From Acorus gramineus (lineage: Eukaryota > Streptophyta > Magnoliopsida > Acorales > Acoraceae): DNA of 64,000 nt. The stretch is taken from assembly GCA_030737835.1 (NCBI GenBank), contig CM060853.1, positions 62,001-126,000 on the forward strand. Direction: 5' to 3'. A program made the translations under genes and the position numbers. Shown one piece after another: positions 5,591 through 63,533 of this stretch (within the stretch, counting starts at the first letter, position 1; every line of letters begins with the position of its first letter). The notes below the pieces were generated by a model, which did no database searches, was not told the DNA's origin, and saw only the letters and a list, made by a program, of their open reading frames with translations.

Positions 5591-7441
5591 TCATGACTCG
5601 ACGTCACTATCACCCCCATCACCATCTCCGCCGCCCTCGCAGGGCTCATCAGACGGCGCGGACGAATCCCCACCGTCCGTTGACTCCGAGCGACGGAGGA
5701 GGATCGACATCTGCCGTCCAATGGTGGTGACCGGACATCCGACGATGGGTACCGGCTCCGTCAGGTTCTCGCCGCCGTCGCGGGGTGGGTCGAACACCAC
5801 CGGCAAGTACTCGTCGATGTCACACGCGAATTTCGAGTTCTTGAAGTGCTCCTTCAGTGCTTTCAAACCCTAAAAATCACAACAAACCCATCAAAACCCA
5901 TCACACACAGATCAAAATAAACAGAACCCATACCTGTAAGCGAGCGTAAGTGACTTCACAGATCTTGCGAGAGTTGAAGACCTCCCATGGCTGGTCGTGG
6001 AAGGCCTTGTACAGCCTCCATGTCGCCTCCGGTGATGTCATGTTCACGAACCCATACCCTACGTTGCATTTGTTACTGCAAAAACAAACCCAAATCATGA
6101 AGAGAGAGAGATATATATATATACTTCTCATCTTCTATTCACAAATAGGGTTTTAAAAGAAAACACTGACTTGAAGTCGATGGGGAGGTAGACGAAGTCA
6201 TAAGAAGAGAAGGGTTGTTGCTTTTGCTGTTGTTGATGATCTCCATCAACGACAGATATCTTTTCGTTGCAGTGAATGCAGTGGTTGTCAAGCATGCTCA
6301 ACAGTAGTTTCTGACTGCACCCAATCAATGAATATTGAATCCCATGAAAAGAAAATTTAGAAATCCATGTAGAAAGACCGACCTGTACTTGTTGGGTATG
6401 TTTTTTATCATCACTGTAGTTCTACAATCCCTTCTTTGACTCGTCGTCTCCTCCGACGACCCCTCCTTGAATTTGAACCGACTGTCCGACGCCCTCTTTG
6501 GCGGTGCAGACGACTGACTCTTCTTCTTCGTCCCTGACAACCCAACCGCCTGTCGGTACTGACTCTTCGCGTTCTTCTTCGGTTCTCTTTGAATTGAAGT
6601 CGATGAAGAAGACGAACCGCCGCCGTAACTGGGTCTTCTGTTGGTCGTCGTCGTCGTCGAAGCAAAGAAGGGTCTACGACCACCGCCGCCGCCGAAATGG
6701 ACGACAACGCGTCGGCCGTGGATTTCCTTCCCGTTGACCTCGGCGAGGGCTTTTGCAGCGTCTCGGACGTCGAAGAATTCGATGAACCGTTGGTGGTGTC
6801 TCTTCGTCTCTCTCAGTCCCTTCACGTCTCCTGAAGTGGTACAATTACATAAAAACCCAACAAAGAATTAAAAAAAAAACGTAATTCAAACACCAAAAAA
6901 ACCTACCGAAGACTTCAAACAAAGCCCTGAAAGCATCGGACGAGAGAGATGGATCAACGTTGAAGACGACGAGCGAGCCGTCATTGGGCCCGAACATGGG
7001 AGGCGCGAACTGGGCCCACACGTGCGGCGGCGGAACCGCCCAACTGGAAGTGTAAAAGCAGTACTGCTGGTGGCGCACGTGCTGATCGAGAACCGCGGCC
7101 AGCGCCGCCTCCGCGTGTCTCTGATCGAAGAAATGGACGGTCACGATTCCCTCCGCCGCCCTATGTGTCTCGACAGCCCACACCGCTCCAAACGGCTCCA
7201 TCTCCGCCCGAACCGCGGGCTCAGTCGCTGTCGGGGGGAGCTGACAGAGAAGGAGAGACCGTGACGGGGGGGTGTCGGGGAGTGGCGGAGGCGGGGGAGG
7301 AAAGAAGGGAAGGGAGGGGTAGGGATGGTAAATATGGGGAGGAGGAGGGGGGGTTTGGGTAATGGAGGGGTGGAACTCTTGGGCTTGTGGGTCGAGAAGG
7401 TTGGAACGAGGGAAGGGTTTGAAAGGACTTGTGGACGCCAT
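5591..7441 (-). CDS. TEL: TERMINAL EAR1-like / Mei2-like RNA-binding protein, five exons
   Basis: The coding sequence is complement(5591-5869, 5934-6075, 6171-6314, 6383-6830, 6907-7441), 515 aa. Every junction is GT-AG and keeps frame. The N-terminus has the family's [10 protein letters not shown] motif, then a polyproline stretch (about 31-58). RRM1 spans about 60-125 and RRM2 about 155-228 (starting SLVVFNVDP). A Gly/Ser-rich linker leads to the Mei2-type C-terminal RRM (about 313-430), marked by [10 protein letters not shown], the split codon giving S, and the [12 protein letters not shown] block. The tail is acidic. Mei2-like proteins bind RNA; maize te1 and rice PLA2/LHD2 control leaf initiation rate in shoot apices. 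The exon structure is intact, with no frameshift. The start is the first Met of the conserved N-terminal block. A GA tract lies just upstream in the presumed leader. Confidence 0.95.
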
Positions 7442-7443
7442 TA

Positions 7444-7474
<31 letters not shown>

Positions 7475-7530
7475 GAATGGAAGATGAAATCATGGGCTTT
7501 TTACAGGGTGGTGTGTATATTCGAGAAACA
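7442..7530 (-). promoter_or_regulatory. 5' leader and proximal promoter of the TEL gene
   Basis: Directly upstream of the TEL start codon is a (GA)n tract of about 30 bases (7446-7476), which reads as CT repeats in the transcript sense and is common in plant leaders. A GAATATACAC stretch on the minus strand, near 7512-7523, is the only TATA-like motif nearby. The transcription start is not determined. Confidence 0.4.
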
Positions 7531-30864: not shown

Positions 30865-31030
30865 CGTTTGACGATTTCTTCTTCACTGCTCCAAAAATTG
30901 CTTCTAAAAGTCAGCCCTATATGCCCAGAGAAGATGTCATCGTTACTTAAAAGTCAGCCCGACTTTCAATGGACAAAATGTCTATGTTCATAGATTTATA
31001 AATTTGATATTTTTCAATTAGGACTTTGAT
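30865..31030 (-). promoter_or_regulatory. Short MSRA 5' flank ahead of repeat DNA
   Basis: Only about 160 bases separate the MSRA start from the minisatellite at 31033. This flank has a CATATAGG motif (minus strand, near 30917-30924) and a direct repeat of AAAAGTCAGCCC (about 30906 and 30949). No clear TATA box or other recognised element is seen. Confidence 0.25.
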
Positions 31031-31032
31031 TC

Positions 31033-31320
31033 ATGGATAAAAAGTCCAGCGTTATTCAATTAAGACATTATTTCATAAACAAAAAATCCAGCGTTTTTCA
31101 ATTGAGACATTATTTCATGGACAAAAAGTCTAGCGTTATTCAATTGAGACATTATTTCATGGGTAAAAAGTCCAGCGTTATTCGATTGAAACATTATTTC
31201 ATGGATATAAAGTCTAGTGTTATTCGATTGAGACATTATTTCGTGAACATAAAGTCCAATGTTATTCAATTAAGACATTATTTCATGGATAAAAAGTCTA
31301 GCATTATTTGATTGAAACTT
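31033..31320. repeat. 42-bp minisatellite, six to seven copies
   Basis: The unit ATGGATAAAAAGTCCAGCG / TTATTCAATTGAGACATTAT / TTC repeats every 42 bp with scattered substitutions. Because 42 is divisible by three, it leaves an open frame of repeating 14-residue units (MDKKSSVIQLRHYF). I read this as an artefact, not a gene. It sits about 170 bp upstream of the MSRA start. Confidence 0.9.
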
Positions 31321-31340
31321 CCCATAATAGACATTTTGTC

Positions 31341-32640
31341 ATGTGTTATTCAATTTAAACAGGATTTGTGAAGACTTTCATAAGTGATGGATTTTTGTGG
31401 ACTTTTATGGACTTTGAGAGAGAAATATAAAGGAAAAAGTCATTTCAAAATCCCACCCAAATGAGTGGGGATTCTCATGAACTTTTATTCCAACATTATG
31501 AATATTTCTTCTTTTAACAAATCTCCTTTATAAATTTTATCCATGCCTTTAATATTTTTATTCACATTTTTTTTATTTATCATCTTTTTTATGAATGTCC
31601 ATATGTATGAAATATTCCTATCACCTCATATGTTTGATGAATATATGAGAATGATATATTATTTTATATAATATATGCCTAGATTATCCACAATTATTTT
31701 CTAAAATATAGATTTATCATATATTTGATTATACGTATAATATTTGATTTGATTTCCTTGAAGATGTTTATATTATTGTATAATATAGATGCATATATAT
31801 ATATTTTTTAAATGTTCTAACTGATGAGCAACAACGAGAGGACAATGAAGACCCTCTGAAAGTTTAAACTCAAAGAGCAACAACGTCGAGATGCCAATAA
31901 TTGACGATTAAATATAGCTAAACGTATGTGGGATGACCATGACATCAATATTCATGGTGAACTAATGTAATATTATCTAGTTAAAAATAGTATTTTTATC
32001 ATGACATTCTAGTAATATGCATTTCAGATATGTGAAAATTGATATTTATTATATTAAATTACATTTTATGTTGGGTATTAATAATTCATGTTGAATTTGA
32101 ATATTTGAGTTCTTTATTTGTTATTTTAAAATTTTAAAAACATTATTGTGTTTATTAATAGAAATCCACATGTGAAAAGAGTCAATCACTAAAAGTGTGT
32201 AAAAGTCTATGAAAGTCCATGAAAGTGATTTGTGAAAATCTGCAAATGTTTGTGAAAGTCCGTGAGAGTCAATCTGTGAAAGTCTATAAATGTCTGTAAA
32301 AGTCTGTGAAAGTTTGTGAAAGTCCATGAGAGTCAATATGTGAAAGTCTGTAAAAGTCTATGAGAGTCAATTTGTGAAAGTCTACAAAAGTCTATGAAAG
32401 TCTGCAAAAGTATGTGAAAGTCCATGAGAGTCAATTTGTGAAAGTCTGCAAAAGTCTACGAAAATCTGTAAAAGTCTGTGAAAGTCTGTAAAAGTCTACG
32501 AAAGTCTGTAAAAGTCAGTGAAAGTCTGAAAAAGTCTACAAAAGTCTATCACTTAAAAAATGTTCACATAAATCCATCAAAGTCAGTATCGACTACCCGC
32601 TAAAGAAAGTCAAAGTCTGTCTTATATGACATATTGTTAG
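31341..32640. mobile_element. Degenerate element with a Harbinger-like transposase remnant and subterminal repeats
   Basis: Between repeat-rich ends, about 31831-31980 on the plus strand reads TDEQQREDNEDPLKV, then after frameshifts and a stop QQRRDAN...RLNIAKRMWDDHD. This resembles the C-terminus of plant PIF/Harbinger transposases (R..IA..MW). The left flank (GACTTTCATAAGTGATGGAT near 31373) is inverted relative to the right (ATCACTT near 32548, and AAATCCATCAAAGTC). A degenerate 10-12-bp repeat, GTGAAAGTCT/GTAAAAGTCT, fills 32170-32555. The element is dead and its ends are not exact. Confidence 0.45.
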
Positions 32641-33440: not shown

Positions 33441-34052
33441 AAAAATAATTGTAACATTTTTCATTCATTATTGAAGTTTTAGACTATAAAATAGATTGAG
33501 TGTAACATTTTTCATTCATTATTGAAGTTTTATTAGGGTGGACAACTTCCCTTCTAAACTCATTTTTGAACACCACAGTGATCGTATCTTTTGAAAAAAG
33601 TGGAAACAACTTCTTGAAATCTAGCTAGCAAAAGTATGCATTTTGAAAAAATTATTTTGAAATAGTCTTTAAATTGAAAAGTTATTTTCAAACTCATAGT
33701 CAAACAATACATAAGAAAATGTTTGGTCATGAGTTTGGGAAGTTTATAGAGATTCTACTTTAATTCAAAATTGTTTTCAAACAACCCATCCATTTAAGAA
33801 AGCGGAAAGTAATTCTTATTATAATAAAAAAACCTTTTAAAAAATCTAATAAAAATATGTTTTTTAAAAATTTATTTTCAAAGATTTTTTTGAAGTGGAA
33901 AACTCTTTTTCAAACATGTTTACGAGCATTCTCGAATAACATTTTCATGACTTATACGATCCAAAAAAATACTAATGACAAAAATAATGATCATTAAAAT
34001 TGCTCCAAGTTATCTATCCATGAATATTAATCGATCATAAATAAGTTATCTA

Positions 34053-35435
34053 TCCCGCGGATGGGCGACGCGTGGAGAGGGCCGCGGATGGGCGACGCGT
34101 GGATGGGGGATCACGTGATCTCACGTGGACGACTTGCCAAGCCTCGTTGACGACTTCGAACTCTCTCTGTGGAGTCTCCTCTCCCATCAAACGTGGAAAC
34201 CCTCGCCAACCTCCGAAGCCGATCGCCGATCGATCTCCCTCACCGAAGCCCCGGCGTCAACGAAGCCTCGCCGATCTCCCTCACCGAAACCCTCAACGAA
34301 GCCTCGCCGATCTCCCTCACCGAAGCCCCGGCGTCAACGAAGCCTCGCCGATCTCCCTCACCGAAGCCCCGCCGCACCCTCGCCGATCTCCGGTGGTCCT
34401 ACAGCCACCTCGTGTCTCCCTCACCGAAGCCCCGCCGCACCCTCGCCGATCTCAGGTGGTCCTACAGCCACCTCGTGAGTTTCTCATTTAATTTTTTTTT
34501 TTGTAATTTGAATGTAGTTCTGTCTTGATTGTTTAGGTTCTGATATGGGTTTCTGTGGTTTTCATTTGATTATATGAATGTGTTTGTTTCATATATGGAT
34601 TTGAGTAGATTTGATTTGTTATTTGAATGGATTTGTTTCAGATATGGGGTTTGAGTGGATTTGATTATGTTATCTGAATTGGTTAGTTTCAGATATGGGT
34701 TTGAGTGGATTTCATTTCCAACACTTCAAAATCCTACTGTTTTTTTTTTCTATCTACAGTAGGATCATCTTCTGTTATTTTTTTCAGGTAAACAGAAGTG
34801 TTTAATGGTTTTTAGTTGAGTGGTTCTCATTTGGACATATTTTTCATTTTTATGATCTTTATTCAACTCACACTGTCTGAAATTGGATGTGCGAATGGCA
34901 GATATTTTTCAGCAATATATTTGTGAAATATTGGCTGAACACTCTGATATCATGTCTCTAGAAGTCAGAGTACCAAACTACTAGTATTTCCTGATGTGCA
35001 CATGATTATGTTAGTTGCATTCATCATTACCATTACAGATGATGTTGATCATGGTTGAAAGACTTCAAATATTTTGGATAAATTTGTCTGCTTGCTTTAG
35101 TAAATGATTTCTGATTTTTCTTTTACTATGAATTCTGTTGGCTCTCATGTCATTCTTTATCCCTATAAATTGATCAGATTGCAAAGCACGACGATGAGAG
35201 GGCTTAAATATTGCACATTGATATTGTATTGTAGTATTCTTCAAGTGCGTACCCACAGGCTATATAGATCTGCATAATACTATTGATTGATATGCTGGGT
35301 ATAGATCATGTAGCATGGGAGTTTTAGTGGACTCTATTTGAATGTCAAGAAATTCTTAAAACCATGATAAGTTGCTTGTGATCCATACATATTTAGTCAT
35401 CTTGTGTTGTTGTCTTGTGAATCCTTTCCTTCCAG
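34053..35435 (+). repeat. Left terminal inverted repeat of the MULE
   Basis: It is about 1383 bp long and is inverted relative to 41391-42759. The outer 420 bp is GC-rich and contains an internal minisatellite (units of CTCCCTCACCGAAGCC and CCTCGCCGAT, about 34225-34470) ending in CCTCGTGAGT. The inner kilobase is AT-rich. The GC-rich part starts with CACGTG motifs and is probably promoter plus transcribed leader. The serine/proline frames in it exist in three registers and are not credible proteins. Confidence 0.9.
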
Positions 35436-35480
35436 TATTTTCAATCTTCATCACATAGGTTTTTTTTTTTTTTCTAACAG
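34475..35480 (+). promoter_or_regulatory. Predicted leader intron of the GRF gene within the left TIR
   Basis: A GTGAGT donor at 34475 pairs with a strong acceptor, a run of T followed by CTAACAG, ending at 35480. This leaves a leader exon segment from 35481 to the GRF start at 35591. A donor of the same sequence lies in the right TIR. This is inferred from splice signals only. Confidence 0.45.
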
Positions 35481-35590
35481 CACCATCTTCTGCTTCATGT
35501 TATAATCCTACTGTTCCAAGCTAAAAGCATTGTGCTCTATCACTTGCAATCAAAGACTTCCATTTTCTCTTTTGAGGCTTCCAAGCAACT

Positions 35591-36121
35591 ATGTCAGAAA
35601 GTGTAAGTGTTTACCTTTTGTATACCAAGTTTTGATGGAATGTATGAATGAATGAATTTTCTTAGCTAATTTTTTACAACAGGTCAATAGCCTACGTAAT
35701 TCAAATGTTAGGCCACTTCCCGCGCATATTCGGCCACGTGAATGTCGTTGTAAGAAAGGCGAATGTCCGATTTATACTTCTCGTCAAGAACATAGTAAAG
35801 GTCGGAGATTTTATTGTTGTCCTTTTAACAGGGTGAGTTAATTGATTTCAATTATTTTCAAGTTTTTCATTACTAATGAGTGAGATCTAATACACATTCT
35901 TTTTTTGTTTGTCATTTTTTCCTATGTAGACTTCTCAAGACTGTCGATTTTTTGAATGGATCGATGACACGGATGATCCAATTGTTGAATTGAAGTTTCA
36001 ACTAGAAAACCATGAAGAGACCATGAAAAAATATTTGAAGATGATGAACAATAGGCTGATAGTGATTATGTGGTGCTTAATTGGTCTCTTGGTTATTCAA
36101 TGTATCAAAGCAATATGTTAG
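35591..36121 (+). CDS. GRF-type zinc-finger protein with C-terminal membrane segment, three exons (MULE-encoded)
   Basis: Exons 35591-35602, 35683-35832 and 35930-36121 join in frame across GT-AG junctions (GTAAGT and GTGAGT donors) to give 117 aa. Residues about 25-67 form a GRF zinc finger: CRC, C32, TSR, GRRFYCCP (C49, C50), then DC (C59) and RFFEW. A charged, probably helical stretch (70-95) leads to one hydrophobic segment (about 97-112) and a very short tail. Small plant proteins with a GRF finger plus one membrane segment are a known class of unknown function. GRF fingers in other proteins bind nucleic acid. The gene starts 156 bp inside the left TIR and converges on the transposase gene. 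No member of the MuDR mudrB family that I know carries this domain. The first exon has only four codons, so the start is somewhat uncertain. Confidence 0.82.
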
Positions 36122-38908
36122 AGACGAATGCATTTTCAATGATGTTTATGTTGTTGTTGGATGTTCAAATAGCTATGTTCAATCCATGAAAATTGTCGTT
36201 ATTTGGTGAATTGTTGTTATTTGGTGAAAAATTTTGTTGGATGTTCAATTAGCTATGTTTGTGGCTTTGAATCCCAAAGATGTTATGGCCTATGATGAAG
36301 TTTGGAATCAGTTGTAGGTGGACCTTTGTACTGAATAAGAAGAAGAACAATTTGAAGAATTTGCATGAAAGTAATGAGAAGATATGACAAAGTAGGTATT
36401 TTATATCAGTGTGTTGTCTAAAACTTGTGAGGGCATGCCTGGATTACTAGCATCTATTCACACAATTCTGTATGGAGAAAGTTTATCTTATCTTCTTTAA
36501 ATTCTGGTGAATACAGAATGACTCAGAAATGCTTATTGTCTAAATATCTTATGGGCCACGTGCGTAAGTTTGGAATCAGTTGTACTGTAAGTGGCCTTCT
36601 GTATCGAATAAAATCCAATTTAAAGAATTTCCTGGAAGTAATGAGAAAAAGGATGTGAAGGATTAAGTTCATATCAGTATATGGTTTAAAATAATTTATT
36701 AGGAAGTGACTGGATTACTGGCAGGGTGGAGAAAGTTTTTTCTCATACTCTTTTAGTCCTGATTGGTTGGAGAATCACACAAAATGCTTTTTGTCAAGTA
36801 CTTCGGTAATAAAACCTCTTTAGAGGCATATTTATTCAACTCTAAATTGCCTCTTCAGCTTGAAGAAGTTTTTAGAGTGTATTGTTATGGCTTCCAATAT
36901 AACACTGATTTAAGAAAATGCAAAGATATTGTTTTGCAACTAATATAACCTCTACTCCATGTGGATTTATTGTAGATTTGAAGCAACTAGACTTTTGTGC
37001 TCTCTTTTGAATTTTCCTCTCTTAATATTATGCTGCTCTGAAGATGCTTAAAACCCTTATAATGAGCCAGATATCATCTCCGAGAAGCTTAGAACCTTAC
37101 GCATAGCATCTTTTCCTGGGATACCTGTTGATGTTTTGATTTATAAAATGTGTTCTCATCCTAGATATTTATTTCCTTTGTCCTTCCGTCAATTATATTT
37201 TGTAATCTCTTTGTCCTATAAAACCTTCTTCATGAAGAAATACTAAAGATACAAAGTCTTGAAGTGCTAAGCATAAAATATTGGGATTGCTGACCAAATA
37301 TTGTCTGGAAAATGACCTTGGGTTTGTGGTTTTTAATATTGCTTTTGTGTCCCTGGCATGCATCTTTTCCTATTAAGGTTGTTTTTTTCATCTTTTAAGT
37401 CTGTTAGGTTTGGTTCAGTAAGCTCTAGTTGATTATGTTATCGGTTATGATCTGGGTGTTATCTTTCCTGGTCTATTAGAAATACTATGTAATGTGCTAC
37501 ATTTTGGGAAATAATTATATGGTACCAGTTTCAACTATCATGACTTCTGATCAATTGGTATCCTTGGTTTTATTACTTATTTCATACTTATATTTTGTAA
37601 TCTCTTTGTCCTATAAAATTGCATGCTTATTTGTACATAAATATAAAATCGTTTTATGACTAGTTTATAATAAACTCGTACCTCGAGTAATATCAAACTA
37701 TTCATAAGATAGGGGTCCACCAAAGTAGTTGCAAAATGCATCTGAGCTCACCGGCAGATTCCCTAAAAATGCTGTGTCAGATGCTCTTACAAAACAACCA
37801 CCATGTTCAGCTGCTGCGAGCAACTGTTGCTGGATGGACAAGCACATGAACTAATCTTTTTCTTTTTTTAATACTTTAATCATAAAAAACAGCCAACAAG
37901 TTCTTCAATTTTCATCATGGTTCCATGCCACAGATCACATGGGAATACAAAAAGGAGAAACACAACATAAGAATAATAGATGCTCACAATGACTACTCCA
38001 AGAAAAACCAGAGGAGATCATCAATCCATACTACATAAAATAAGTACACATGACTAATGTCTCAATAATATTACTTATATAAGGTAACCAAAGATTTTAA
38101 AACGGGCAAATAAGATGGGGAGAAAAAAGAAAAGAAACGAAATCCCACACAAGAAACAACAAACAAAACACAGTTCCTCAAACCAGATAATCAATCCCCT
38201 ACTCAACCAGCAAATATAGAGAGAACAATACAAGAGAACCGTAGAAGCACTTTCTGTGAACAATGGATGGTCCGGACTCATCATACTCTCCCTTCGATAT
38301 CCACATCTGCAAAAGCACACTCAGTGAGACTCCACATTTTCTTCGCTAGTGTTTACTAAAAACTAAGGAAAAAGTGCAATGAATTGAAATGAAGATGGGT
38401 CTAAAAAAGCACCTGAGATTTGTTCAAGCATTGTGAAAAGATGGGTCTAAAAAATAAATTCACCAGGTAAGAATCACCTTCAAAAACATACAATTCATTG
38501 GATTATACACCTTCAAAAAAAAAAATGAAATCAAATGAAGTATACACCTTAAAATAAAAAATCTAATTGTGTATCTATTGAACACTGCTTTATAAAATGA
38601 GTGGTCATACAAGGTCAAGTCTTGGTCTAGGTGATCCCTAATGCAATCAAAACTGAAGATTTCATTCAAAATGTGAATCTGATAGAAAAAATGAAAGCCA
38701 ATCCTTTATATTCACGAAGAGACATCCAAAGCTAACATCATTAGAAATGCACATTTCAAATACCAAACAATATAATAGAAATGCATTTTTTCAAACATAA
38801 CACAACAAGTGCATCATTTAGTTTTGAACACTTAAATATCAAGTAGAACTTCAAAGTATTCAACACTTACATTTGCTTGAGTTTTTACTACCCTGAGTGC
38901 CAATAATA
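36122..38908. other. Internal MULE spacer between the convergent genes
   Basis: About 2.8 kb without a credible full gene. It has repeats: GTTTGGAATCAGTTGTA blocks near 36299 and 36567 with similar downstream sequence, and an exact 29-bp direct repeat (ATATTTTGTAATCTCTTTGT...) near 37193 and 37590. An open, composition-balanced stretch at 37729-37854 could be a captured exon. The two genes' 3' ends and terminators must lie here. Confidence 0.5.
37729..37854 (+). other. Possible captured terminal exon (41 codons, unrecognised)
   Basis: A plus-strand frame reads ASELTGRFPKNAVSDALTKQ, then a Cys/Ser/Ala-rich end closing DKHMN and TAA. It is less AT-biased than its surroundings and opens just after AGTAG, a usable splice acceptor. 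I do not recognise the protein. It may be a host gene fragment carried by the MULE, or chance. Confidence 0.25.
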
Positions 38909-41333
38909 TTAATCTGTGCTCCTCCATTCTTCAGAAAAATTTGACGCTTGACTCATTTGAGTAGGATAAAAAAGGGATTCTTGCGCCTACATATATGAAT
39001 GTACATATTAATGACCATTTGGAAAAGTAAAAAAATATTTAAAATGTATTTTACATACGAATATACCTGAAGCAATTGAGTCATTGAAGTCATTCCTTGA
39101 CTACTATTGTAGTTCCCAACCGTTGGCGCAAAGGGTTGAGGGCTCTCAATGGCATTGTGGGACGCATGTTGAGTTTGAGAGCTTTGACCTCGTGATCTCT
39201 TCTCCAACACACCGATCCATCTTTTTTGAGGCTTCCCTCCCACAGTCTTCTTTCCTCTTCTTTTGAAGCCTTTAGCAGCCTCGACATTCGAAATGCTATC
39301 CACCTCATCTTGCACATTATCATCTTGACAATTTTGAGATGATTTTCTCAAATCTTCCTCAACCTCCTTCATTAAATCATTTGTGCGGCGTTTAAGTAGG
39401 TCTGTTGAATGGTGTGTTTCAGCTCCCTTGGATGCCACTTGAATGAGACCATGACTTAATTCTTGAAAACGCCTTCCCAATTCAGAAATAGGGTCAACCT
39501 GTAATGAAGAAGAATACATAACTTTACAATAAAATCATACAATCAACTCATAACATTTTTCAATCAATATAATAAACACATATCAACCTGTATTGAAGAA
39601 GAACAAATATCATGCACCACACCAGATTTTGCATCTCTTGTCCACCTCTTCAAGATATATTGTGGTGGAAGAAATTTGATGTTTCTGTGATCAAGAACTT
39701 TTAGAACATGGCAACATTGGATACCCATAAATTCAAATTTTTTGCAGCTACAGGTAACCATTTCAGTAGCTGAATCAAACAAAATGGTTCTTTCATTGCC
39801 ACGGTCTCTGTGAACTTTGTACTCTATCACATTCCCCATCTCCCCATGAAAGTAGATAGAACAATTAAGAGATTTTCCATATTCTGCTTGAAACAATTCA
39901 AGGATCTCTGGTGTATAAACATTTGCAACACATGACACCATCAAAGTGTGATATGGAATTACCGGTACAGTATTCGTCATCTTGAAATCAGCACTCAATT
40001 CACTTTCACGCCGGTCATCCATAACCCTATCAAAATGCTGAAAGAAACGTAGCGGATCATGCTTTGAGTTCAAGTAGCGTCTCAGAAGAGCATTAAAGCT
40101 TTCACTACGTTGTGTACTCTTCATGTCCGCGCAAAATGTGTCTCTCCCATACACTAAAGCCCATTTCTCCTTTTCAGCAAAAGTTTGTTGTAGCCATTTA
40201 TTGTCCTGAAGATTGTAATTTTGAAGCATGTTATTCCAAGCAGCTAGGAACTCCTCCTCCGTCTCGTACCCAAATATACAAGCATAGAAGGAACTTCTGA
40301 AACCTTCAATGGCATAAAGATGTCCAATATGCTTTGTTGCATTTTGGGTCAAGTGCCACACACATAGCCGATGACGAGTCTCTGGTAGAACAACTGAAAT
40401 TGCTTTGGCCATCGCCGCTGACTGATCTGTTAGAATAGTCTTAGGATGTCTCCCAGACATTGCTTGAAGAAAAGTTTCAAACAACCAAATAAATGAGTCA
40501 GCTGTCTCATCATAAAGTAATGCACCACCAAAAATAATTGTTTGCCGATGATTATTCACCCCAACGAATGGTGCAAATGGTCTTCCATGATTATTTGTAC
40601 GATAGGTCGTGTCGAAGCAAATTACATCACCATAATGTGCATAATCGACGATAGACCTAGCATCGGCCCAAAACACATTTGTTATTTGTTCATCGGCATC
40701 AAGTTGCATTGAGTGAAAGAAAGACGGATTTTGCTTTTGCTTATTCTTGAAATACTGAATAAGAGCACCCGCAATTCCATTCTCCATTCTTGTTTCCCTT
40801 TTGGTGCGCAGGTAAGACTTCACATCATTCAAAATGAAACCAAGATTCTTTCTATCTCCAACTTGTCCACTCATCAAATCCATAACTGCTTTTGGTGCTA
40901 ATCCTGAACCATCTATGATATCAACCTGAGCAGCTTGAGCTTTTCCAATGTTTCTATGTGACCTCAAATTATGGCGCAAGGGGGTTGATACAAGATCATG
41001 ATTATGGTTTTGTTCAAATTTAGTGACATGATAAGCACCAGAAGACTGATAAGAGATAATCATATGTGCCTCACATCCTGTTCTTGTATCGGGTTGTGGG
41101 TGCAAGACTTTTCGCTTATCAACCCCTTTCCTCCCTTCTTTAGAACAACAAAATTTTCTCTTTCTCACTATGCCATTGGACTTGAATGCATCACTTTTTC
41201 GGATACTAAATCCAATTGACCTTGCATATGTGTTGTAGAATTGATGGGCACTATCTTCAGAATCAAATGCCATACCAACTTCAGGTATACCATTATAGCT
41301 ACATTCACCCACAATCTCATTGTCTCCTTCCAT
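38909..41333 (-). CDS. FAR1/FRS-like MULE transposase, three exons
   Basis: The coding sequence is complement(38909-38986, 39067-39498, 39588-41333), 751 aa, with both introns between whole codons. Domains in order: an N-terminal FAR1-type DNA-binding region (about 20-112; FYNTYARSIGFSIRKS, FCCSKEG, HNHD); a MULE transposase core (about 235-415) with DTTY (D241), LTDQ (D303) and the TQRSESFN block (E411) as likely catalytic acids; a CxC...CxH SWIM zinc finger (C528, C530, C540, H542); and a basic, Ser/Gln-rich tail. FAR1 and FHY3 are host light-signalling factors domesticated from such transposases. Placement between long TIRs argues that this one is still a transposase. No frameshift or stop is seen. 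The start at 41333 is the first Met of the conserved N-terminus and lies 58 bp inside the right TIR boundary. Confidence 0.93.
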
Positions 41334-41350
41334 AACAACTCAGTGTTCAC

Positions 41351-42355
41351 CTATAAGAAGAAAACATAATTTAGAACATTTAACAAGACAACTGGAAGGA
41401 AAGGATTCACAAGACAACAACACAAGATAAGATGACTAAATATGTATGGATCACAAGCAACTTATCATGGTTTTAAGAATTTCTTGACATTCAAATAGAG
41501 TCCACTAAAACTCCCATGCTACATGATCTATACCCAGCATATCAATCAATAGTATTATGCAGATCTATATAGCCTGTGGGTACGCACTTGAAGAATACTA
41601 CAATACAATATCAATGTGCAATATTTAAGCCCTCTCATCGTCGTGCTTTGCAATCTCATCAATTTATAGGGATAAAGAATGACATGAGAGCCAACAGAAT
41701 TCATAGTAAAAGAAAAATCAGAAATCATTTACTAAAGCAAGCAGACAAATTTATCCAAAATATTTGAAGTCTTTCAACCATGATCAACATCATCTGTAAT
41801 GGTAATGATGAATGCAACTAACATAATCATGTGCACATCAGGAAATACTAGTAGTTTGGTACTCTGACTTCTAGAGACATGATATCAGAGTGTTCAGCCA
41901 ATATTTCACAAATATATTGCTGAAAAATATCTGCCATTCGCACATCCAATTTCAGACAGTGTGAGTTGAATAAAGATCATAAAAATGAAAAATATGTCCA
42001 AATGAGAACCACTCAACTAAAAACCATTAAACACTTCTGTTTATCTGAAAAAATAACAGAAGATGATCCTACTGTAGATAGAAAAAAAAACAGTAGGATT
42101 TTGAAGTGTTGGAAATGAAATCCACTCAAACCCATATCTGAAACTAACCAATTCAGATAACATAATCAAATCCACTCAAACCCCATATCTGAAACAAATC
42201 CATTCAAATAACAAATCAAATCTACTCAAATCCATATATGAAACAAACACATTCAAATAATCAAATGAAAACCACAGAAATCCATATCAGAACCTAAACA
42301 ATCAAGACAGAACTACATTCAAATTACAAAAAAAATAAATAAATGAGAAACTCAC
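41351..42355 (-). promoter_or_regulatory. Predicted leader intron of the transposase gene within the right TIR
   Basis: On the minus strand a GTGAGT donor at 42355 (same sequence as in the left TIR) pairs with CTTCTTATAG ending at 41351, 18 bases before the transposase ATG. The intron would be 1005 bp, nearly equal to the 1006 bp predicted on the GRF side. This implies that each TIR acts as promoter and leader exon for the gene it faces. Inferred from splice signals. Confidence 0.5.
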
Positions 42356-42759
42356 GAGGTGGCTGTAGGACCACGGGAGATCGGCGAGGGTGCGGCGGGG
42401 CTTCGGTGAGGGAGACACGAGGTGGCTGTAGGACCACCGGAGATCGGCGAGGGTGCGGCGGGGCTTCGGTGAGGGAGATCGGCGAGGCTTCGTTGACGCC
42501 GGGGCTTCGGTGAGGGAGATCGGCGATCGGGGCTTCGGTGAGGGAGATGCTTCGGTGAGGGAGATCGGCGAGGCTTCGTTGACGCCGGGGCTTCGGTGAG
42601 GGAGATCGATCGGCGATCGGCTTCGGAGGTTGGCGAGGGTTTCCACGTTTGATGGGAGAGGAGACTCCACAGAGAGAGTTCGAAGTCGTCAACGAGGCTT
42701 GGCAAGTCGTCCACGTGAGATCACGTGATCCCCCATCCACGCGTCGCCCATCCGCGGGA
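41391..42759 (-). repeat. Right terminal inverted repeat of the MULE
   Basis: It is about 1369 bp long and inverted relative to 34053-35435. It is nearly identical in the AT-rich inner kilobase (for example ATCAATCAATAGTATTATGC and GCGTACCCACAGGC read in both). In the GC-rich outer part it differs in minisatellite copy arrangement and lacks the 27-bp tip duplication. Confidence 0.9.
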
Positions 42760-42953
42760 GCTCCACAGAGACTCCGAACCCGCAAATGAGGGCTTTTTTA
42801 TTTCACAAATAAGAAAATGGAAGAATAAACTTGGACTAAGTTGGTGTTGATTCCTTTTGTTAAGACGAATGAGTAACATTTTGGTGGTCATTCATGGGTA
42901 TCTCTTCTTTTAATTCATTACTTGAGTCGCGTAATGGATAGGCTCTGATATCA

Positions 42954-49661: not shown

Positions 49662-52600
49662 TCATACAAAGTGAGTTTGCGAAGAAGAAACTGAAATTGA
49701 CTTCGTAAAGAAATCAGCAAGCTGCTCAGCAGAGGAGATATGCGGAAGCGATAATGTCTCTGCAAGAAAGTGCTGACGAACGAAGTGACAATCGATCTCA
49801 ATGTGTTTGGTCCTCTCATGAAAGACCGGATTGCTAACAATCTGAATAGCAGACCGGTTATCACAGTGAAGAGGAGTAGGACCAGTCATAATAACTCCTA
49901 GAGACGTCTGAGATGAACAATCTCCTTGGTGGTGATAGCCATGGCTCGATATTCAGCCTCAGTGCTGGAAAGAGAAACAACCTCCTGTTTCTTGCTGCGC
50001 CAAGAGATGATAGAATCTCCGAGAAATATGCAGAAACCAGTGGTGGAGCGTCTAGTCGTCGGGTCTCCAGCCCAATCAGCATCAGTGTAAGCCCTGAGAA
50101 CCAGAGTCGAAGAAGATGACAGATAGATCGATCTAGTGATAGTACCACGCAAATATCTAAGAATTCGCATAAGAGCACCATAATGCACTGATCGAGGAGC
50201 CGAGACAAACTGACTAACAATACTGACGGCATGAGCAATGTCAGGTCTAGTGATGCAGAGATACACAAGCTGACCCACGATCTGTCTGTATCGAGTAGGA
50301 TCTGAGAGGAGCTCACCATCCGTAGGACGAAGCTTCACATGAAGCTCGAGAGGAGTATCCGCACTGCGGGTATCGGAGAGGAGCACGCTCTAAAATGTCA
50401 GCTGTATACTTCTGTTGAGAAAGCAGAATCCCACGATCACTCTGTGCAATTTCGAGACCAAGGAAGTAGCGAAGAGTACCAAGATCTTTCATCTGAAACT
50501 GTCGACTGAGGTGATTCTTGACCCGAGTAATACCAGCGGAGTCATCGCCAGTTATAATCATGTCGTCAACATACAGAAGAAGGATTACCCGCCCCTGCGA
50601 TGAGGATCGCACAAACATAGAGTGGTCCTGGTGGCTCTCAACAAAACCAGCTGTCAGAATAACACTGCGAAACGCTCAAACCAAGCACGAGAAGCTTGTT
50701 TCAGTCCGTATATAGCCCGCCGAAGATGACAAACATGCTGAGGAGGAGTGCTGAGACCTGGAGGTGGTTGCATATAAACAATCTCAGATAAATCACCATG
50801 AAGAAAAGCATTCTTCACGTCCATCTGAAAGAGAGGCCAGCGACGAACAGCAGCAACGGCGAGAAGGGTGCGAACAGTAGTCATCTGAGCAACAGGAGCA
50901 AAGGTCTCCTCATAGTCAATGCCATACTCCTGAGTGAAACCTCTAGCAACAAGACGAGCCTTATGGCGTTCAATGGAACCATCAGGGCGATGCTTGATCT
51001 TGAAAATCCACTTGCAGCTGATAGGGGTAACACCATCCGGAAGGGGAACAACATCCCAGGTCTGTGTCTGCTCAAACGCCTCAAACTCCTCAGCCATGGC
51101 CTGCTGCCACTCAGGGTACTCGACTGCCTCGTGATAAGATCGGGGAGATAGGCCTGAAATTGTGGAGAGTAGGTACTGACAGATGCAAAACCAAACTGGT
51201 CTGGTGGCCCCGAGTCGTAACTGAAGCGGGAAGGGGGTGACGCGCACGGTGAGGATAACGAGGCAAAAGATGAGGATCCACGGCAGGAGGAGGCGCGTCA
51301 GGCGTGGGAGTCGGAGGACCAGTGGAAGTATCTTCAGTAGGGACAATAGGTGACACACTGGGAGGAGAGGGTGGGTTATCTGCAGGATTGTCAGGTTGAG
51401 ACGCAGGGGTAGGAACAGACTCTAGTGCAACAGGTAGGCCAGGAAAAGGAAGAGACGTAATAGGAGGGACCTGAACAGGAGAATGCATAGGAGGAGAGGA
51501 CGGAGTGGGTGAAGAAGAAAAATAAGGAACATCCTCGACAAAGGACACATGACGAGCGATCCAAAATCGATCTCCAACAGGATCATAGCAGCGATAACCC
51601 TTGTGTTCGAAGCTAATCCCCAAGAATACACACTTTACTGACCGAGCGGCCAACTTGGTGCGTTGATGAGGAGGGAGAAGCACAAAACACGTACATCCAA
51701 ATGTGCGAAGTCTGCTATAATCAGGGTGAGAAGAATAAAGACGCTCATGAGGAGTCATACCGGAGAGGACAGAGGGGGTGATATTGATAAGATGGACACA
51801 GAGAAGAGCAGCTTCAGCCCAGAACATACTGGGGACTGAAGAGGAAAGTAAGAGAGCACGAGTCGTCTCAAGAATATGACGATGTTTACGTTCAGCAACC
51901 CCATTTTGCTCATGAGTGTAGGGGCATGATTGCTGAAAAAGGGTGCCATGAGAATGAAGAAGAGAACCCATATTGTACGAGCTTGAAATTGGGTATAAAT
52001 CATATTGGTAAAAATCTCATAAATTTTGGGAACCTCAGAACGTTGACGCAATAAATAAATCCAAGTAAAACGAGAGTAATCATCAATAAAACTAATATAA
52101 TAAGAAAAACCACTCTTTGAGGTTACATGAGATGGGCCCCAAATGTCAGAATGAACAAGCTCAAATGGACTAGAGGACTGATTATTACTAGGACTAAAAG
52201 GAGTAGCCACAGGTTTGGCTAATTTACAGCCCTCGCAAACAGAAAGTGGAGAAAAAGAAATACGACCTAAGACACCAGATTGAAATAGTTCTTTGAGACG
52301 AGACTCAGACACATGACCTAACCTTCGATGCCACAAATCGACATCAGAAGTGACGCTACCACAGAAGACAGATGGATCAGGAACGGGAAGACGAAGATAC
52401 TCCACGTAATAAAGTCCGCCAATCCTACGTCCAACGCCAATCCTCTGCCCTGATCGTGGATCCTGCACAAGACAACCAGAGGTGGTAAAGGTAACAGTGA
52501 GACCAGAATCACACAATCGGCTAATAGATATAAGATTCATGCAAAGGTCAGGGGCATGCAAAACAAATGGTAATGAAATGCGTCCTGTAGGGTCAGAGGT

Positions 52601-53815
52601 GGTAGTGATCGATCCACACTGCGTGATGACTAAAGGGGAGCCATCTGCAGTATGAATCGTGGGCAGGTGTGAAGGTGCCGGTGAGCATGCAGTGAGGACA
52701 GAACTGTCCGGTGTCATGTGATGTGAAGCACCTGAATCAAAAATCCAATGAACAGGAGTACCCAAAGTAGTAGAGAAAGCAGAGGGAGTAGAAGAACCAG
52801 GAGGAGGTTGCTGTATGATCAGTTGATCGAGGCTCTCTCGGATACGCCCAAGCTGATCTGTGTATGAAGACGGAGCGTCAGTAGCAACAGCAACAGAAGT
52901 ATAGGGAGCAGTGGGGCGACGTTGTCCTCTTCCTTTTGGTCCAAAGCGCTTTTCAGGATGAAGCTTCCAACAGTCGGCGATCGGATGTCCAGTCCTCTTG
53001 CAGTGAGCACATAATGTATTCTTTCGAGAGGAGCCTGTGAGAGTCGTAGGAGGAGTAGCTGCCAAGACACCCTCATAAGTGGAAGATGGAGTGGACTGGC
53101 GCAATGCAGTGGTGCGAAGACGAGTCTCCTCAGCAACAACCTCAGTGACAGCGGATTCCAGTCGAGGAAGTGGATCCCGATGTATGAGTTGACCGGCCAA
53201 TGCGGAAAACTCTGGACGAAGAGCCATCAGATACTGGTACAACTCGCGACGATCACGAAAAACTTCTCGCTCAGCGGGAGTGGCCATCGGTCCAGGCTCA
53301 AGCGCACGAAGCTCCCTGAAGTTCGCCCTCATGCGACCATATAGAGTCTGGGCAGATAGATCACCTTGAGTAGCAGTCTGAGTGTCGATCAGAAGTTGAT
53401 ATTCACGAGCACCGCTTTTCTCTACAAAGCGATCACAAAGATGAGTCCATAGTGCGGCGGACGATGGAAAACCAGTGAGATCTGCACGGATCGAACGATC
53501 AACAGAGTTGATCAAATAGGAGAGTACGCGTCTGTCCCGTGTGCGCCAGGTGATATATGTCGGGTCTTGATCAGACGGTTGCACAATAGAACCATCAATA
53601 TAACCGACAAGATGACAACGATCGAGAGCGCTCCGTACCGTAATGTGCCAGGGTGACCAATCGTCGACAGAACTGAGAGGAAAATCCGTCGAGTTCGGAA
53701 GATTGTCCTGAAAATTCTCAAAACATGCCATCTGAGAGAGAGTAGTAGCCTGAGAGAGATCAGAAACCTTCGAAGTTGGTAACGGAAGAGTAGGGTCGTC
53801 GTTGGTTTCTGACAT
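49662..53815 (-). pseudogene. Copia retrotransposon gag-pol, broken by frameshifts and a deletion
   Basis: The 5' frame (53815-51755) holds gag, a CCHC knuckle (CAHCKRTGHPIADC, about 269-282), the protease motif DSGASHH (about 360), a GAG-pre-integrase block (HRRLGH) and the start of the integrase. The order protease, integrase, RT, RNase H marks it as Copia. Later parts continue in other frames: integrase end (51971-51111), reverse transcriptase (to about 50654; [17 protein letters not shown] block), the YVDDM catalytic site (50618-50313), and RNase H (50386-49662; ADWAG, SSTEAEY). At least four frame changes occur. The integrase appears to have lost the segment around its second catalytic Asp, near 51980. 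It could not encode a working polyprotein. A primer-binding site and 5' LTR are not recognisable above 53815. Confidence 0.9.
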
Positions 53816-54395
53816 TGTGCAGAACCACTCGGATGAGGATCAGAAGCAGACGAGGACGTAGAGCACGAAAAATCGAGCAAAATGAATGGTCTTTGTTCAG
53901 ATCTTAATCCAAAACCATTTACCCCAATTCATCAAGGCCTCTCCCACAACCCAACGAGAATCAGAGAGATACCGGCGAATGGACAGTGGACGGATGGAGG
54001 AGTTCAGATAGAATCAAGAATTTTGAAGAGAAGAAATCAAGGGTTTTGATTTATTTAATTTTTCTAGGGTTTGTAGGGCAGAGAGGAAGATGGGGTTCAT
54101 TTGGGGAGACAATTTCACTTCGGATGGAAAAAACATTGGCAGAGAGAGTTGGCTGAAAAAAAAAAGGTTTTGTTGAAGGGGCAACGTGGTACTCCTTTCA
54201 CTTCGGTTTACATTGAAGTTTTCCTTACAATGCTCTATACATATATGCAAACTTGTAGGGAAAAATGTAGTGAGAGAGGGTTGTGAGGAGACTTTTGGAG
54301 GCGGGTTTTAAGGTTTTTTACTCTCTATATGAAGAAAAATATGGTGTGGGAGTCTTTTGGAGGACTTTAATAAGGCTTTTGGAGGTGGGTTACAA
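53816..54395. other. Region upstream of the Copia gag start; 5' LTR not found
   Basis: No copy of the 135-bp LTR lies here. Instead there is GC-richer leader-like DNA (to about 54010) and then AAACCCTAG-containing sequence. On the minus strand a 78-codon frame at 54250-54014 has no recognised domain. Blocks reading CTTTTGGAGG (54292-54390) are inverted relative to CTTCAAAAGCCTCC at about 46767. This hints that an older element spans the hAT and the Copia insertion. Confidence 0.4.
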
Positions 54396-61482: not shown

Positions 61483-62447
61483 ATGAAATCTACGGATTTG
61501 ACCGGATCACGGCAGATGACGGAGGGGATCCCCGGCGTCGATACCTCCGGCGCTGACGTACGGATCGTCACCTCAGGCGGGCGGTGCTTCGCCGCTCACA
61601 CTCACGTCCTGGTAAGCCATGGCGCCTCGGTATTCGTGCAAAACCCCTACACCCCTCTCTCTCTCTCTCTCTCTCTCGATCGAGCCGGTTCTCGTGCGCC
61701 TCGTGATTCCCGCTGCTTCGCCTCGTTTGAGAGAGAGAGAGAGAGATTCACACAACAATGATCGAATCATAGAGAATTCTCGATTTGCACCGCAAATCGG
61801 GACTTCTGTGTGAAATCACATAAACATTTCATGAATTTCAAAGCGATTTAGAATTTGAAAGTCATTTTTATTAATATAAATTTTTTTTTTAAAAAAAAAA
61901 CAAATACAGGCATCGGCGTCAACGGTGTTGGAGAAGCAACTCGAGAGGGCAGAGAAGCGGAGGACCACGTCCGGAGGAGGAAAAACAATCCGGATCCTCG
62001 GCGTCCCCTGCGACGCCGTCTCCGCCTTCCTCTCCTTCATCTACACATCCAGGTCCGTCCCGTTCATCTAATCAGCGCCGTCCGTCCGATCCGTGGATCT
62101 ATATATCACTACTGACGGTTTTGGGGGTTTTTTCGGGTTTCAGGTGCTCCGCGGAGGAGATGGAGAGGTACGGGGTGCACCTGCTGGTGCTGTCGCACGT
62201 GTACTGCGTGGGAAGGCTGAAGCGGGAGTGCGAGAGGGGACTTGCGCGGACGGTGACGGCGGAGAGCGTGGTGGACCTGCTTCAGCTGGCGAGGATGTGC
62301 GACGCGGCGTATCTGAAGATGAGGTGTCTGAAGGTGTTGGAGGGAGGGTTTAAGGAGGTGGAGGCCACGGAGGGCTGGAAGTTCTTGCAGGCTCATGATC
62401 CATTTCTCGAGCTCGAGCTGCTTCAGTTTCTCGATGACGCCGAATCG
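61483..62447 (+). CDS. BT: BTB/POZ and TAZ domain protein, first three exons (partial)
   Basis: Exons 61483-61611, 61910-62052 and 62144-62447 join in frame across GT-AG sites to encode the first 192 residues. The BTB/POZ fold begins at about residue 24 (ADVRIVTSGGRCFAAHTHVL, then ASASTVLEKQ) and continues through ILGVPCDAVSAFLSFIYTSR. It is followed by the family's MERYGVHLLVLSHVYCVGRL and the BACK-like helix run ending GWKFLQAHDPFLELELLQFL-DDAES. This order is diagnostic of plant BT1-BT5 proteins, which act with CUL3 and in nitrate, hormone and gametophyte functions and carry TAZ and calmodulin-binding regions at the C-terminus. That end is not in the window. The third intron (GTCAGT donor, 62448) exceeds 1.5 kb. 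No lesion is seen in the three exons. Confidence 0.93.
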
Positions 62448-63533
62448 GTCAGTTCTTTTTCGTCCTTTTTTTTTTCTTGCTCGTAATATTGGTAAAAAAT
62501 GAGTTACAGTAATATATATCTTTCATATCTCAATTTTTTTACGAGACTTGTGTTATCTAGTGTAATATATCTCTTTTACATCGTAAAAAATGAGAATATT
62601 CAATTTGGAATCAGTGATATCCATTATTCATATAAGCATATACTTTAATAATTAAAATTGTAAGGACAGTATTTGGGGTTGTTTTTTAAACTATACCTAA
62701 TATTATCTTTATAATTTTATTTTAAAGTTTTCAAAATTTATTAATTTTTTTAATTAAACACATTTTTGGACGATAAGAAAATGACGTGCCATGTGAAAAG
62801 ATTTCTTGTCATTAGCTTTTTGCTAGTTGAATTTTTAATATTTTTTTAATGTTGAACTGCATGTGATTTTTCTTTACGTAACAAAGGTGGTGTTACACGA
62901 AGTATAGATTAAGTCTATCAATTATTCAAAAAAATATTTGTATCTGATTTAAATCTGTATAAAAAAATTCAGAAAATATAATATCTGATATCCAAAAAAT
63001 CTGTATCTGTATCCAAAAAAATTATCCGTATAAAAAAATTTCAGATCGGATACAGATATATCTGTCTCCGATCCAAAAATATCTGTATTCGTATCCGAAA
63101 AAATTATTATATCATTATTTATTTAATTATCTATTTATATTTTTAGGATTAATATGAGTTTTCATTTTTATTTTTACTTTAAAGCAAGTAATATTTTATG
63201 TATATACTTATAGTTTTATGTTTTATACTAGGTAATTATTAGATTTTTTACATATATCAAATATTAGATATATAATTTTTATTTTGGATATTAAATCTTT
63301 GGATATTTTAATCATTTCGTATTCATTTTGAATTTTGATATATTTTGAATAATTATCCGTATCCGAATCCGGATTTTTGGATCGGATACGGATACTTACT
63401 TTTAATATATGTCGGATATCGGATACGGATAATTTTTTGGATATCCAATTCGGATACAAATACGAAAATGGGACTATCTAATCCGTATCTAATTGACAGG
63501 CTTAGATGGATAATCTTTTAAATATTTAATTTA

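Follow-up and report, generated by a model that had tools for sequence, protein, structure and literature searches.

A two-gene Mutator-like element of Acorus gramineus in which a FAR1-type transposase gene is paired with a gene for a predicted tail-anchored GRF zinc-finger protein

We report that positions 34053-42759 of the window, i.e. the whole 64,000-base stretch of Acorus gramineus DNA analysed here (contig CM060853.1, positions 62,001 to 126,000 of the forward strand; assembly GCA_030737835.1), constitute a Mutator-like element (MULE) with two convergent genes between inverted arms. An earlier note on this DNA had described two long inverted repeats around two convergent, open, multi-exon genes, and this description holds: the arms could be aligned with each other and the predicted exons of each gene join without a stop. 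Two features of MULEs are present, the long terminal inverted repeats (1355 and 1367 bp, 10 substitutions) and a MULE-family DDE transposase with a SWIM finger. The Pack-MULE feature, the lack of a transposase inside, does not apply since a transposase gene is present. The neighbours of the element in the window look like ordinary gene space. By eye, these include RNA-recognition and Mei2-like open frames at 6325-7489 (-), probably belonging to a MEI2/terminal-EAR1-type gene, gag/pol sequence of a Copia-type retrotransposon, distributed across several reading frames, at 49861-53839 (-), and a frame resembling a BTB/TAZ-type protein at 61893-62486 (+); tandem arrays with units of, for example, 42, 126 and 98 bases occur at 31013-32537.

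The left arm (34053-35436, + strand) and the right arm (41391-42759, - strand) were delimited by BLASTN and by arm alignment. The part shared between both sides spans 1355 bp on the left (34082-35436) and 1367 bp on the right (42757-41391), and the alignment comprises 1353 aligned bases with 10 substitutions and 16 gap columns (98.2% identity over 1369 columns in BLASTN). Small tandem arrays with units of 41, 50 and 63 bases are present inside each arm, and nine of the 16 gap columns sit in the 41-base array. A 22-base terminus is found without mismatch at 34055-34076 and 34082-34103, i.e. with an extra tandem copy at the left outer end, and inverted at 42736 (0.00 expected). Because the left terminus is doubled in tandem, the start proposed earlier (34053) lies further out than the shared arm, which begins at 34082, while it does fall at the duplicated terminus. 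In a DNA transposon the similarity of the arms is not an insertion clock, and the age of the insertion is not readable from them. We found no second copy of the element elsewhere in the 64-kb window at E 1e-5, and Rfam gave no match at the gathering score over the window. The motif CACGCGT occurs four times in the 64 kb, three of these in the element termini (34068-34101 and 42738-42744). It is one base from CACGCGC, which we take to be the FHY3/FAR1 site and which has no occurrence in the window. CACGCGT may be the site by which the transposase of the element binds its ends.

No perfect 8-11 bp direct repeat adjoining the arms was found in the flanks. A candidate target-site duplication consists of TCATAAATAAG on the left (34035-34045), 7 bases outside 34053, and TCACAAATAAG on the right (42803-42813), 45 bases beyond the last shared arm base, 42757. 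The two agree at 10 of 11 positions; when the 60-base flanks were shuffled by mononucleotide, 7 of 300 trials did equally well. They are suggestive of a target-site duplication that the arms do not directly adjoin. Between the candidate duplication and the element there remain 7-9 additional bases at the left end and 45 at the right, which means either that the ends were rearranged or that the match is due to chance. The missing perfect duplication and the duplicated left terminus would also suit a history in which arms or genes stem from different nested elements and their pairing is accidental. We regard this as very improbable, as the match between the arms extends from end to end, both genes begin a short way inside their arms, and the A. 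calamus gene model P0007 (see below) joins sequence of both genes. The full-length match likewise speaks against the concern, raised in the earlier note, that the two arms might belong to different elements.

Both arms contain exact copies of a donor-like sequence, CACCTC/GTGAGT, with its GT at 34475 and 42355, and of an acceptor-like sequence, CCTTTCCTTCCAG, at the inner arm edge (35423-35435 and 41404-41392). Leader introns are thus predicted at 34475-35435 (+) in the left arm and, with the same donor and acceptor, at 41392-42355 (-) in the right arm. The simplest reading is that each arm would represent a promoter, a noncoding exon and a leader intron, which would express whichever gene lies inside.

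The right-hand gene is encoded on the minus strand. Its three exons, at 41333-39588, 39498-39067 and 38986-38909 (the last including the stop), join to 751 amino acids without internal stop; all exon borders, for both genes, are GT/AG predictions from the sequence. Exon 1, identified as an open reading frame and by Pfam and alignment, encodes a FAR1 domain, a MULE catalytic domain with D241, D303 and E411, and a SWIM finger. The Pfam matches are FAR1 (residues 31-115, E 4.2e-23), MULE (E 6.2e-30), SWIM (E 5.7e-7), a ZSWIM-type RNase H-like domain and Transposase_mut, the latter barely above its cut-off (21.4 vs 21). The alignment with 17 of 120 listed relatives shows no variation at D241, at D303 or at the SWIM ligands C528, C530, C540 and H542, and conservation of at least 90% at E411. 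The FAR1-type transposase claimed earlier is thereby confirmed, the named residues being exact and both Pfam and the alignment agreeing. No protein named as Acorus is present among the 120 listed of 1319 transposase homologues, some of which are listed without an organism name; perhaps, and this is a guess, transposon genes have been masked in the annotation.

The left-hand gene, on the plus strand, is predicted to have three exons with GT/AG borders, which encode 117 amino acids without internal stop. Coding exon 1 (35591-35602) encodes MSES, a start that is also present in the A. calamus models P0006 and P0007. Exon 2 (35683-35832) encodes the first part of a zinc finger, as supported by Pfam, while exon 3 (35930-36121) encodes the remaining finger, a linker and a C-terminal hydrophobic segment, followed by the stop, as supported by Pfam and hydropathy. 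The finger belongs to the GRF family according to Pfam (PF06839, E 7.6e-9, 36 bits vs the curated cut-off of 25.9). The most hydrophobic 19-mer corresponds to residues 98-116, with a mean of 2.46 that none of 2000 shuffles reached, and the protein thus agrees with its earlier description as a GRF zinc-finger protein having one predicted membrane segment. Relative to the diverged A. gramineus protein P0005 the finger is identical at 40 of 44 positions, whereas the flanks have changed (9/22 identical before the finger and 12/51 after it, ungapped); since the finger was kept in this way, the comparison suggests that it is under constraint, a statement at the protein level only. P0005 has also kept a hydrophobic tail (1.99 by the same 19-mer measure, 6 of 2000 shuffles being as high). 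We modelled P0005 with AlphaFold2 (17 sequences, mean pLDDT 74.5, pTM 0.39), which gave a three-strand finger followed by one helix at residues 71-119; the block means of pLDDT were 90-96 for residues 81-120, 66 for 71-80 and 64-80 for 21-70. The hydropathy of the GRF protein and the predicted helix of P0005 fit a tail-anchored build with a single C-terminal segment, and we predict that the protein is built as a tail-anchored membrane protein.

With respect to what the finger might do, a search with profile A3, which includes two added seed sequences, both with hydrophobic tails, relates it to NEIL3 (5e-13), ZCCHC4 (3e-5) and, weakly, to 5u6z (0.021), which we take to be APE2. Those proteins are enzymes of which the finger is one domain, whereas the present finger is attached to a membrane-like tail. 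One study connects F61, R68, F76 and W78 of ZCCHC4 with contacts to RNA or ssDNA, in that protein itself and, via their counterparts, in APE2 (PMC6834594); in our reading of the alignments these four residues correspond by position to F47, R54, F62 and W64 of the present protein. The GRF finger is therefore predicted to bind single-stranded or branched nucleic acid. Such binding might instead serve self-defence or regulation, i.e. the GRF protein would counter host silencing or set the dose of the transposase, as VANC does for Hiun, and not act on cut DNA. An anti-silencing second gene has a precedent among MULEs according to a part of a MULE survey (PMC6446971), and GRF fingers can bind single-stranded nucleic acid and contribute to RNA binding in ZCCHC4 (PMC6834594, for ZCCHC4). 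We nevertheless consider this alternative unlikely, as it offers no evident place for a membrane anchor.

All eight homologues obtained with the GRF query are from Acorus, six from A. calamus and two from A. gramineus (13 candidates scored), and none is identical to the protein of the window; the six A. calamus loci point to a multi-copy family. Two look decayed, P0006, which departs from the frame of the finger, and P0007, where Tyr replaces a finger Cys, as expected for transposon copies. The annotated P0001-P0004 are close to the protein of the window and continue into exon 3 in frame, and none of the four has the hydrophobic tail; among the eight models P0005 alone reaches our hydropathy cut-off (a 19-mer mean of at least 1.6). 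Beyond Acorus, a C-terminal 19-mer at or above this cut-off was present in 9 of 14 GRF proteins detected with profile A3, the hydrophobic-tailed seeds of which may favour this outcome. Because these non-Acorus proteins share it, the combination of a GRF finger and a C-terminal hydrophobic segment is not special to this element or to Acorus. Small plant GRF proteins of Fagus, Cannabis, Buddleja, Mercurialis and Linum resemble the present protein in having the GRF finger, a charged linker and a C-terminal hydrophobic stretch, but the Acorus finger reads TSRQEHSKGRRFYCCP where most of them read TSWTxxNPGRRFYGC. At4g04775 is presumably also a plant GRF protein. P0141 of Tanacetum coccineum has a GRF finger and then a long non-membrane tail that resembles the domain at the N-terminus of MuDR-type transposases; as this domain was not detected by Pfam, the assignment was dropped. 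Among the prokaryote contigs scanned with a pattern derived from P0005 there were 126 pattern matches and no relatives.

These comparisons bear on whether the gene is a passenger. In that case one MULE lineage would have captured a host GRF gene similar to those of other angiosperms, and the gene would have spread with this lineage in Acorus with no role in transposition. The tails of the non-Acorus proteins and the decayed look of P0006 and P0007 would fit such an origin, and host genes are often carried by MULEs, as stated in parts of two reports (PMC6446971, PMC9168764). On the other hand, the GRF gene of this element is intact, contains introns of its own and, like mudrB, is directed inward from its arm, and its zinc finger is nearly unchanged in P0005 although the flanks are not. 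We find a passenger rather doubtful on balance, while giving it some weight.

That the two genes travel together is suggested by annotated protein gene models, which constitute our evidence on other copies of the element. P0007 (A. calamus QJS10_CPB14g01428; 91% identity to the GRF query, of which it covers 49%) corresponds to GRF exons 1-2 in its first part, and its C-terminal end reads NPLTQRVDDSQWNCGWD. Within this tail, 14 residues match the plus strand at 39120-39161, an antisense stretch of transposase exon 2, and 10 of them are identical (28.5 bits vs 24.3 for the best of 500 shuffles, i.e. none was as good). Because P0007 joins GRF to antisense transposase sequence, the gene order and the convergent orientation appear to be kept in this copy. 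The N-terminal peptides of P0002, P0003 and P0004, which are three A. calamus locus tags, find their best match within the 64-kb window where the leader of the arms is translated (equalled by 1, 2 and 1 of 500 shuffles, respectively). Their composition is biased towards Ser, Pro and Arg, and a common ancestor is probable; since the matching part is nearly identical in all three, the matches are not independent. In total, four of nine Acorus model peptides tested matched the element. The remaining five, the tails of P0001, P0002, P0003 and P0008 and the N-terminus of P0001, had no match above shuffles (364, 140, 294, 113 and 252 of 500 as good, respectively). The earlier note would have given up its reading if the GRF gene were absent from all other copies of the family; the joined P0007 and the leader-like starts of P0002-P0004 answer this in part, at the level of gene models.

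With regard to known elements, the transposase resembles those of Jittery/FAR1-type MULEs, placed by domains, in its N-terminal FAR1 domain, MULE catalytic domain and SWIM finger. In the relevant part of a MULE survey the Jittery dicot/monocot subgroup is characterized by one ORF, with FAR1 plus SWIM or CCHC, and by TIRs of 39-292 bp or none (PMC6446971), while the present element has arms of approximately 1.36 kb and two genes between them; the single ORF, as given there, is perhaps not a defining feature. Two-ORF MULEs appear elsewhere in that survey, with mudrB, MutB, vanB/vanC, or RING or C2H2 ORFs (PMC6446971, in part). As in maize MuDR (mudrA and mudrB), two genes lie between the arms, a transposase gene and a partner of debated role (PMC6446971, PMC9168764), and the GRF gene is directed inward, as mudrB is according to the earlier note. 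Different from MuDR, a GRF finger can be recognized in the partner, which also has a membrane-like tail, and the transposase has a FAR1 domain. The term MuDR-like in the earlier note is thus apt for the layout, with two inward genes from long arms and a second gene identifiable by domain, and describes the layout only, because FAR1 together with SWIM points to the FAR1/Jittery-type group. The Abermu MULEs of grasses and other plants (ORF1 and ORFR) include types having an extra gene opposite to the transposase, and ORFR is reported there as variable and its function as open (PMC9168764, in part); the word GRF has no occurrence in the main text of that paper. In the open-licence literature, which misses most subscription papers, we found no MULE with a GRF partner gene; judging by their listings, studies of the peanut pod methylome and of wheat hybrid expression that touch on both GRF zinc fingers and transposable elements seem to have no bearing on it. 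Mutator elements make up 5.01% of the A. tatarinowii assembly, as stated in part of the genome report (PMC9300462). Our reading is that the element is a FAR1-type MULE by its domains, with a putative tail-anchored GRF protein encoded by its second gene.

Taken together, we consider it probable, with room for doubt, that this is a potentially autonomous two-gene MULE of Acorus, and that the GRF gene is a resident, co-mobile partner with an accessory role and not the chance passenger of one copy. Promoter, untranslated first exon and leader intron would be the same in each arm, so that near-identical control sequences would drive both genes inward. The right-hand gene would provide the FAR1/MULE/SWIM transposase, which would bind the ends and cut. 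The left-hand gene would provide a GRF finger on a helical stalk ending in a C-terminal anchor presumed to insert into a membrane, and its most likely role would be that of an accessory factor which acts at the nuclear envelope or ER membrane, on intermediates of transposition or on RNA of the element. A wider conjecture, which we put forward as a long shot, is that GRF tail-anchored proteins form a recurrent helper class of plant MULEs, in which a membrane-tethered single-strand binder would tether the excised ends or the RNA of the element to the nuclear envelope, and that many of the orphan GRF genes of plants whose products have hydrophobic tails are remnants of such elements or related to them.

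According to part of the genome report, Acorus diverged early from all other monocots (PMC9300462), and knowing whether the partnership is present in or absent from the remaining monocots would therefore give an indication of its age. The role of the second genes of MULEs has been open since mudrB, and here a conventional transposase is accompanied by a partner for which the fold predicts both an activity, single-strand binding, and a location, the membrane, each of which can be tested. Finally, the element could provide an origin, or a use, for part of the little-studied family of small plant GRF proteins.
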